NCBI GenBank assembly: GCA_023251235.1
Contig: JAHEZE010000022.1
Coordinates: 1 to 38,837, forward strand
DNA length: 38,837 nucleotides
Source of the DNA: Sphingobacteriales bacterium
Lineage (GTDB): Bacteria; Bacteroidota; Bacteroidia; Chitinophagales; Chitinophagaceae
Direction of reading: 5' to 3'
Positions 19,937-27,738 of the stretch are shown piece after piece. The stretch's first letter is position 1, and each line of letters opens with the position of its first letter. Both the position numbers and the translations under genes were made by a program. The notes beneath the pieces were generated by a model. It did no database searches. It was not told where the DNA came from and saw only the letters and a list, made by a program, of their open reading frames with translations.

Positions 19937-20001
19937 CAGAATTAATTCTGTTCATCAGCCGTTGCGTCGCACTCTTGTACCATTGTGCTTGCATCGGCTG
20001 A
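19937..20001. repeat. Palindrome and stem-loop between rho and mnmH
   Basis: CAGAATTAATTCTG (19937-19950) is a perfect 14-bp palindrome. TCAGCCGTTGC (19955-19965) pairs with GCATCGGCTGA (19991-20001) with one mismatch across a 25-nt loop, and is followed by CTTATTTTTG. It may terminate rho, or be a REP-like element, since the T-run also forms the mnmH promoter box. Confidence 0.45.
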
Positions 20002-20016: not shown

Positions 20017-21171
20017 GTGGCTGTAGAAAAAATAAATATTGATCAATTCCTTGGCCTGGCAAAAAATCATCTTGTAATCGATGTCCGCAGTCCGGGAGAA
20101 TATCAACATGCCCACATCCCCGGAGCTTATAGTTTACCATTATTTACTGATGAAGAAAGAGCTGCTGTAGGAACAGCTTATAAACAGGAAAGCCGTGAAA
20201 AAGCAATCAGGATAGGATTGGATTTTTTTGGGCCGAAGATGAAAAAAATGGTGGAGGAAGTGGAAGGAATTGACGAAGTAAGAAGTATTACGTACAGACC
20301 AGCCGCTTCTGAAGAATTAAAACTTCATACTTCTAAAATCGTGCTTATTTATTGCTGGCGTGGCGGAATGCGTAGCAGTGCTGTTGCCTGGCTGCTGGAC
20401 CTATATGGCCTCAAAGTATTTACTCTTATTGGTGGCTATAAAAAATTCAGAAACTATGTTCTGGAAACATTTAAACAACCTTTTAATTTCAAAATTCTTG
20501 GTGGTTATACAGGATCGGGCAAAACAGAAACCTTAAAAGAACTTGAAAGGGCAGGAGAAAAAATAGTTGACCTCGAAGGTCTCGCCAATCATAAAGGTTC
20601 AGCATTTGGAAATATCGGCTTACCTCAGCAACCTACCCAGGAAATGTTTGAAAATCTATTAAGCTGTGAGTTGCAACAAAAGTTAATGGTCAAAGGTCAG
20701 TGGCCATTTTATAATAGTGAATCCCCGCATTCACTATTCACAATTAACCATTCAGCTATCTGGCTCGAAGATGAATCACAACGCATTGGCCTTATTAATA
20801 TCCCAAATGAACTATGGAATACCATGCGGAATTCGCCTCTTTATTTTCTTGAAATTCCTTTTGAAGAAAGACTCAATCACCTGGTTGATGAATATGGAAC
20901 CCTGGAGAAAGAAAAAATGATTGATGCCATTGGAAGGATCAAAGAAAGACTGGGGGGGCTTGAGGCCAAAAATGCTATTCTGCATCTTGAAAGCAATGAG
21001 TTTAGAGCCGGTTTCCATATATTATTGAAATACTACGATAAATGGTATACAAAGGGGCTACACAATCGGAAAAGCCTTAATTCGTTATTAAGAATTATTG
21101 ACTGTGAATCCGTAACCGCGTTGAACGCAAAAAAACTGATCCAACAGCCTGTGTATCATGAAAAATCTTAA
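20017..21171 (+). CDS. mnmH: tRNA 2-selenouridine synthase
   Basis: The 384-residue protein joins an N-terminal rhodanese domain (VIDVRSPGEYQHAHIPGA; catalytic Cys113 in YCWRGGMRSSA) to a P-loop domain (GGYTGSGKT, 162-170) with DLEGLANHKGSAFG. It replaces sulfur with selenium in 2-thiouridine at the tRNA wobble base, using selenophosphate from SelD, whose gene lies 1.4 kb downstream. The start is GTG 20017, just after a TATTTTTG box. Residues about 224-247 look like an insert relative to the family, falling between QQKL and IWLEDESQRIG. They are encoded by a segment containing a 10-bp inverted repeat. The 3' end overlaps the next gene by 14 bp. Confidence 0.95.
   Translation: MAVEKINIDQFLGLAKNHLVIDVRSPGEYQHAHIPGAYSLPLFTDEERAAVGTAYKQESREKAIRIGLDFFGPKMKKMVEEVEGIDEVRSITYRPAASEELKLHTSKIVLIYCWRGGMRSSAVAWLLDLYGLKVFTLIGGYKKFRNYVLETFKQPFNFKILGGYTGSGKTETLKELERAGEKIVDLEGLANHKGSAFGNIGLPQQPTQEMFENLLSCELQQKLMVKGQWPFYNSESPHSLFTINHSAIWLEDESQRIGLINIPNELWNTMRNSPLYFLEIPFEERLNHLVDEYGTLEKEKMIDAIGRIKERLGGLEAKNAILHLESNEFRAGFHILLKYYDKWYTKGLHNRKSLNSLLRIIDCESVTALNAKKLIQQPVYHEKS
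20713..20738. repeat. Inverted repeat inside mnmH (in-frame insert)
   Basis: AATAGTGAAT (20713-20722) and ATTCACTATT (20729-20738) form a perfect 10-bp stem with loop CCCCGC. It sits in the extra segment of mnmH (about 20686-20757). Read in reverse, the segment shares GTGAATAGTG and a GAATGGT-type start with 27571-27600, suggesting a dispersed repeat. Confidence 0.6.
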
Positions 21172-27519: not shown

Positions 27520-27570
27520 TTAATTGAATTGAATGAGTGGTTAAAATTTTGATTTGTTTGGCGGGAGAAA

Positions 27571-27600
27571 TGAATGGTAAGTGGTCAATGGTGAATAGTG
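27571..27600. repeat. Short dispersed repeat similar to the mnmH insert
   Basis: This 30-bp segment begins TGAATGGTAAGTGG and ends GTGAATAGTG. The reverse strand of the mnmH insert (20755 down to 20713) reads GAATGGTTAATTGTGAATAG and continues TGAAT. Shared words and order suggest two copies of one element. Confidence 0.4.
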
Positions 27601-27738
27601 TCTTATAAAGACTCAGGTTGTTGAATAAGGGCTGTATATATTGACAATTGGCCTTTCCCCATTCCCAAAAATCCCAATAACGATCCAGAAGTTGAAGTGT
27701 CCGACCCTTCCATATCGGCAAACTCGGTGTCTGGGTAA

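Follow-up and report, generated by a model that had tools for sequence, protein, structure and literature searches.

Here we describe a repeat built of inverted arrays of seven-base units, one copy of which lies in frame within mnmH, the gene for tRNA 2-selenouridine synthase, in a Sphingobacteriales bacterium of the Chitinophagaceae (assembly GCA_023251235.1). The stretch of DNA analysed, referred to below as the window, comprises the 38,837 nucleotides of contig JAHEZE010000022.1. The gene was assigned using the NCBIfam models NF008750 (E 1.4e-105) and TIGR03167 (E 1e-94), both above cut-off. The insert keeps one 7-nt register throughout and preserves the reading frame of its host. The features concerned are as follows.

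20017..21171, + strand: mnmH (tRNA 2-selenouridine synthase), the host gene.
20681-20756: the whole MnmH insert, a quasi-palindrome of 76 nt, residues about 222-247.
20681..20722, + strand: left arm, six in-register heptamers AGTTAAT GGTCAAA GGTCAGT GGCCATT TTATAAT AGTGAAT, the fourth and fifth decayed.
20723..20728, no strand assigned: spacer (loop) CCCCGC, 6 nt.
20729..20756, + strand: right arm, four heptamers ATTCACT ATTCACA ATTAACC ATTCAGC.
20713-20722 and 20729-20738: perfect 10-bp inverted repeat AATAGTGAAT-CCCCGC-ATTCACTATT with a 6-nt loop, the inner part of the quasi-palindrome.
27569..27660, no strand assigned: second element with the same word; GGTCAAT GGTGAAT in the left arm and ATTGACA ATTGGCC in the right enclose a 43-nt spacer, and the outer units are weaker.
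20275..20333, + strand: possible older heptamer element in MnmH loop 1, GAAGTAA GAAGTAT ... AAACTTC ATACTTC, two units per arm; weak, seen by eye.

The perfect inverted repeat that an earlier note on this DNA had pointed out is exact at 20713-20738, and the likeness it saw to the segment at 27571-27600 is real, that segment being the left arm of the second element, catalogued at 27583-27653. This second element is probably located upstream of the start of a minus-strand gene, and an open frame runs through it. When the genome was searched with the 72-bp segment that the note took for a repetitive element, the 72-mer was unique as a whole (next best match, 27 nt at 89%), but its heptamers recurred. 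The recurring feature is a word of seven bases arranged in inverted arrays, rather than a fixed element, and the MnmH insert represents a single copy of a dispersed repeat made up of two such inverted, degenerate arrays.

Searches of the 3.23-Mb genome with a two-unit pattern (ATTSAYNATTSAYNATT, at most one mismatch) gave 145 matches versus 12 for the same pattern read backwards; a stricter two-unit form gave 94 versus 2, and a three-unit form 55 versus 0. The 24-nt right-arm pattern (up to three mismatches) matched 20 times versus 0 for its reversed control, and within the window the right-arm pattern matched once versus 0 in 100 shuffles. Among the loci examined in this genome, 46 arrays of at least two units were catalogued, 16 of them inverted pairs, and the loci examined in the sister genomes G002 and G003 added another 46 arrays, including 17 pairs. 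It is important to note that the first catalogue keeps two-unit single arrays and the second drops singles of fewer than three units; a number of these two-unit arrays, including C14:25801 within a DnaB-like gene, C120:4149, C1:36968, and C54:33643, are probably chance matches or native coding sequence. The arrays on contigs C38 and C173 appear to be one sequence found at two contig ends. In the cleaner arrays, base 4 of the unit was C in 92, G in 70, A in 11, and T in 3 cases, and base 7 was C in 90, A in 38, T in 30, and G in 18; little variation is seen at the remaining five positions, partly since the arrays were found by them.

The inverted pairs, sought up to 60 nt apart, follow a common plan. 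The left arm carries [N]GT[C/G]AAT on the G-rich strand and the right arm ATT[C/G]AC[N] on the C-rich strand, separated by a spacer of 2-55 nt that differs between copies. Adjacent arrays at this distance were left-G/right-C in 38 cases, the opposite in one, and on the same strand in five; four units were present in 21 of the 38 left arms and 22 of the 38 right arms. The same polarity was found with other words, where nine of 15 pairs were left-G/right-C, none were the reverse, and the remaining six had zero or same-sign skew. In four-unit arms the outermost unit ended in G or A in 35/43 (G in 20/43), compared to G in only 4/129 inner units (Fisher, 8e-11). By eye, arms are chimeric in loci L238, L306, and L311, and L194 has an in-register change of word.

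The variable C/G base obeys a further rule. At equal depth it matched between the two arms in only 33 of 120 comparisons (permutation mean 0.50; 0/2000 permutations as low), compared to 47/90 and 40/91 in neighbouring registers. Mismatch prevailed in 26 elements and match in two, with ten ties, and it was seen both in the own genome (15/48 matched) and in other genomes (18/72), inside genes marked by hand (6/33) and elsewhere (27/87), and at every spacer length (13/44, 11/41, and 9/35 matched). Base 7 showed no such arm-mismatch effect (0.41 versus 0.39).

A number of candidate accounts of this anatomy were tried and rejected. Selection against perfect hairpins alone was not adopted, given that base 7 shows no avoidance and the rule is not weaker with longer spacers. 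Among the 15 pairs that have four units in each arm, end-to-end pairing of G strands (anti-diagonal) gave 22/57 matched versus 11/57 for depth-matched positions and 52/114 for other combinations. An A.A/T.T form of the rule in the AGATGWC word fits L194 by eye and fails in L298, and is not claimed. The spacer as a pre-existing host loop is plausible for TilS when compared with G005 and unsupported, by eye, by L288-L290. Single-stranded DNA folding of six copies gave z-scores of -3.84 for the MnmH copy, -1.51 for the 27,6xx copy, and -0.61, -5.36, -5.09, and -2.26 for the others, so that a strong hairpin is not a feature of every copy.

In contrast to the arms, the interiors are little shared. 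Comparison of the 38 spacers (703 comparisons) revealed a shared word of at least 7 nt in 36 cases versus 25 in one shuffle, with one word of 11 nt; no family consensus extends over the whole copy length. Direct repeats of at least 5 nt in the flanks were found in 3/38 elements versus 0.76 expected (mean 1.63 versus 1.52).

Within mnmH, the insert occupies the second of two loops of variable length (loop 2, EMFEN..EDESQRIG), which has 50 residues here, 30-31 in the same-genus genomes G005 and G004, and 44-46 in the nearest relatives G001-G003. The insert thus lengthens the protein by about 20 residues compared to the short loop form, and by only 4-6 compared to the nearest relatives. In an AlphaFold2 model (mean predicted local distance difference test score, 80), the score falls below 50 at residues 92-105, 225-244, and 378-384, and these low-scoring stretches correspond to both variable loops and the C-terminal tail; residues 225-244 are placed between a helix and a strand in the model. 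Database searches (PDB and fold) with MnmH returned close matches for the N-terminal rhodanese part only, and no solved loop.

MnmH is present in 162 of 294 family genomes. Loop 2 was sought in 95 MnmH loci (L149-L151 were omitted as duplicates of G002, G003, and G001; the same-order loci L060-L062 and L065 were also excluded) and parsed in 93, L239 and L279 being unparsed; loop 1 was parsed in 83 of the 95 and unparsed in 12. The parsed loop 2 measured 29-58 residues in 91 loops, aside from two mis-parses (L284 and L051) at 90 and 92. Neither of the conditions under which the earlier note would have been refuted holds: distant MnmH proteins show no conservation of the insert, and its units, unlike the 72-mer as a whole, are not unique in the genome. 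Periodicity in the DNA was scored as at least 12/14 lag matches, with other periods as control. Period 7 was found in 9/93 copies of loop 2 (one of low complexity) and periods 5, 6, 8, 9, 10, and 11 in none; the window's own copy scores 11. Loop 1 had period 7 in 12/83 and period 8 in one, and the candidate element at 20275..20333 did not pass this test. All 21 period-7 matches across the 93 genes fell within the two loops, which make up 15,750 bases, and the other 88,641 bases had none, compared to one match of period 8 in loop 1 and one outside, and one of period 10 outside. The words in loop 2 differ, and include ATTSAC (L152, L234, part of L238), AGCTAYG beside CCCCTTCAGGGG (L229, L231), ACAGGAT (L160), AGGAAGC (L156), TCATCTG (L281), and AACTCCA (L238). 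A different type of repeat, a CCCCTGAAGGGG / CCCCTTTAGGGG / CCCCTTCAGGGG palindrome followed by a G-run, was also seen in loop 2 of L044, L153, L229, and L231.

A similar pattern was obtained for TilS among the 30 best matches from 112 genomes, where 28 loops could be parsed (L297 and L312 could not). Period 7 occurred in 11 of the 28 and period 8 in one, and the genes contained 15 period-7 matches within the loop (2,211 bases) compared to 10 in the other 38,403 bases. In a tree built without the loop, array-bearing genes fell into several separate clades with different words, although 14 of 27 forks were open; capture at the TilS loop therefore probably occurred several times. MnmH loop 1, MnmH loop 2, and the TilS loop have repeatedly captured heptamer arrays of different words.

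Approximately 13 arrays lie in frame in genes, based on reading frames and NCBIfam names. The hosts are mnmH, pyrD, ribF, a nitrite/sulfite reductase, uvrA, mutL, fmt, an rsmF-like gene, tilS, hisS, a fused 2-oxoacid dehydrogenase E1, an IcmF-type mutase, and argH, the last doubtful. Translated left arms read like VNSEWSI or VNGQL and right arms like HHSPFTI. When six arrays besides that of MnmH were aligned to solved structures, PyrD, Fmt, RibF, and TilS had extra residues at the array (4/6), and in the fused E1 protein it separates the alpha-type part from the beta-type part. Fmt of G003 carries an element at the same place as in the own genome. Two further cases were noted by eye: an in-frame ATTSAC element (VVNSQWSIVN...FTIHHSPFTIA) in an open reading frame (ORF) resembling HemC, near 19127 of L205 in genome G199, and an array in the apparent signal peptide (LLAIHHSLFTFA) of a gamma-glutamyltransferase-like ORF of the own genome (L038, C165:19713-19733).

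The three-unit ATTSAC pattern (at most two mismatches) matched 157 of 294 Chitinophagaceae genomes, with 1 to 1030 matches each, and gave 0 matches in the same-genus G004 and G005. The backwards control is itself frequent in G033, G079, G102, and G177, which indicates that other heptamer words resembling the reversed pattern are present there, and the counts of genomes such as G033 and G079 thus need care. In a phylum sample of 296 genomes, of which 11 belong to Chitinophagaceae, 96 matched, for the most part at low copy number. A wider periodicity sample covered 720,309 bases in 40 regions, of which 31 came from genomes having at least 20 matches. Period 7 accounted for 24 matches in 12 loci, followed by period 21 (11 in 5), 8 (6 in 2), 14 (6), 9 and 16 (2 each), and 17 and 20 (1 each), with none at the rest and none in one shuffle per locus. 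Some of these matches share an array, as do three of those in L194 and two in L192, and 20 period-7 matches are left without L205, L206, and L211, whose ATTSAC matches were already counted. Only 4 of the 24 (three arrays) were inside ORFs, compared to 438/600 random positions, a sign of purifying selection.

Taken together, these data are likely to reflect a dispersed heptamer repeat that arises genome-wide, survives in genes only in frame within length-tolerant loops, and has been captured repeatedly. Copies would arise throughout the genome, and those surviving within genes would be the ones that preserve the frame in flexible loops. The MnmH insert itself is most likely a tolerated by-product in a disordered loop, and we infer that it is neutral for MnmH.

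Several observations weigh against this reading. The nearest relatives already have a longer MnmH loop, perhaps an older decayed copy, which leaves the date and size of the MnmH insertion uncertain. In HisS, the array adds no length compared to the best homologue, and period-7 matches also occur outside the TilS loop. As arrays were detected by closeness to the word, old and decayed copies are under-counted. The slight excess of 7-nt words shared between spacers (28 versus 16 in one shuffle), the single 11-nt word, and the 3/38 flank repeats leave room for some copying, and the C/G mismatch rule is not explained.

The principal alternative is a genuine mobile element of the miniature kind, bounded by heptameric terminal inverted repeats and mobilised by some transposase, whose spacers diverged after insertion. 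It is unlikely, although several features speak for it: the inverted arms with their distinct outer unit, the flank repeats in excess of expectation, patchy counts within genera (226 versus 1 in g22; 44 versus 0, 0, and 0 in g2), and the in-frame copies. The last recall the Rickettsia palindromic elements (RPEs), short palindromic repeats found in frame in unrelated housekeeping genes and between genes, as reported in a review (PMC10969869). RPEs, however, form families of about 150 bp with a conserved peptide, whereas here the heptamer arms alone recur, spacers vary, and words vary between genomes. Miniature inverted-repeat transposable elements (MITEs) are likewise dispersed with inverted ends, as are the 38 pairs of one polarity (and one of the other) described above, but here the interior is unshared, target duplication is unclear, and a search limited to the Y1 transposase family found no linked transposase. 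BrickBuilt, a MITE of the Bacteroidota species Porphyromonas gingivalis, is reported to bear a minisatellite of tandem repeats, and no term beginning 'heptam' occurs in its description (PMC4596501). Since little spacer sequence is shared and no target duplication is clear, the copies are probably not ordinary MITEs or RPEs. A mobile element is also disfavoured by spacers that share little beyond chance though many arms are near-perfect, and by arms with different words or in-register word changes (L194, L238, L306, L311; by eye). The earlier proposal of a small mobile or repetitive element holds as regards a dispersed palindromic repeat, inserted in frame and lengthening a variable loop; mobility is not borne out.

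REP/RAYT systems also combine palindromic repeats with Y1 transposases, of which the own genome has four matching loci (2.1-3.3 kb each); these hold other palindromes, and 0/4 is flanked by or carries the heptamer repeat, in a search confined to the Y1 family. Flanks of Y1 (RAYT) transposases were accordingly rejected as the source of the repeat. The four matches (IS200/RAYT-type, one weak) are L096-L099 on contigs C140, C166, C6, and C24, and the palindromes seen near them by eye include GCGTTCCGTAGGAACGC, CCCACGGTTTAAACCGTGGGC, CTCCGGAGGAGC, and ACTTTGGCAAAGT.

Replication slippage with template switching, whereby chance seeds grow by 7-nt steps and fold-back synthesis yields the inverted arm, is improbable. 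The dominance of period 7 in the wider sample agrees with it, as does an excess of heptameric repeats in bacterial genomes for which slippage is proposed (PMC4692102). Fold-back copying predicts matching arms, yet the C/G base matches in so few comparisons that the rule argues against it, and the same word in 157/294 family genomes and the strict polarity also speak against slippage.

Somewhat more doubtful still is the possibility that the arrays serve as DNA sites with a structural or protein-binding function, with coding copies selected for the site. The word is kept in the arms while spacers differ, the register-locked mismatch is independent of spacer length, and TAACTGA heptamers are proposed as regulator sites in Beggiatoaceae (PMC4679880). 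Against this, the pattern is absent from 137/294 family genomes, including G004 and G005 of the same genus, arrays are fewer in ORFs than at random positions, and different words occupy the same protein loop. Ordinary variation in MnmH loop length (29 to 58 residues among 91 loops) with a chance likeness to a repeat is very improbable, as it is contradicted by the genome-wide controls and by the concentration of period 7 in loops.

Returning to the genome-wide repeat captured in loops, near-perfect arms with unrelated spacers argue against the copying of a master element, and we infer that copies are written anew. The polarity, outer-unit signature, chimeric arms, and in-register word changes are consistent with G-strand heptamers being added separately to two ends that are then joined; our leading guess is that the ends of broken DNA perhaps receive these heptamers in this way. 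An analogy is provided by mammalian interstitial telomeric sequences, telomere repeats reported to be inserted at double-strand breaks (PMC2246262, PMC8537989). They resemble the end-addition model in that repeats are put into internal sites during break repair, but are eukaryotic hexamers made by telomerase. No match to the reverse transcriptase family RVT_1 was found in the own genome (G000), G002, or G003 (drafts, at least 91% complete), and among drafts of the same completeness RVT_1 occurred in 1/12 array-rich versus 5/12 array-poor genomes. This scarcity leaves a telomerase-like enzyme unsupported, adding to the points against, and a reverse transcriptase was rejected as the writer; another polymerase or a transposase is possible. 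A full version of the model, in which an undescribed Bacteroidota activity writes genome-specific heptamers on each of the two ends at a DNA break or nick, with the G-rich strand facing outward, prior to joining, and the depth-locked C.C/G.G mismatch reflects recognition of the two ends or of the folded product, is speculative and rather unlikely. If it were true, the scars between genes and in protein loops would be a standing source of new protein segments.

Cyanobacteria carry heptameric repeats known as STRR. Heptameric repeats are also reported in Beggiatoaceae, cyanobacteria, xanthomonads, and a few Bacteroidetes (PMC4679880, PMC4692102), with the TAACTGA repeat also in five Bacteroidetes (PMC4679880). 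These bacterial tandem repeats (TAACTGA, GGGAATC, and the cyanobacterial ones) are alike in the 7-nt unit and in being dispersed and patchy; they differ in that units here are degenerate at fixed positions (base 4, C/G, and base 7), form inverted pairs of one polarity, and are captured in frame. Mitochondrial genes of Nematomorpha are reported to contain coding palindromes, long perfect repeats in conserved protein regions (PMC6649704), and so share inverted repeats within coding sequence, unlike the heptamers found here in loops. A literature search of open PubMed Central (subscription journals being outside its scope) returned no title or abstract on inverted heptamer arrays in Bacteroidota or on their capture in enzymes.

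In this one bacterial family, loops of housekeeping enzymes have grown repeatedly from heptamer arrays of many words, nearly always with a unit of seven and one polarity. This provides a source of new protein sequence that can be counted, together with a sharp test of why seven-base repeats are over-represented in bacteria, and the register-locked mismatch is a constraint for any mechanism.

A separate apparent dispersed repeat, GTACAAGAGTGCGACGCAAC, lies at 19961-19980 of the window on the - strand, just upstream of mnmH. Similar stretches (at most 4/20 mismatches; a count without chance control) were seen in seven places within six other loci of the own genome (L004, L012 twice, L026, L102, L104, and L108).
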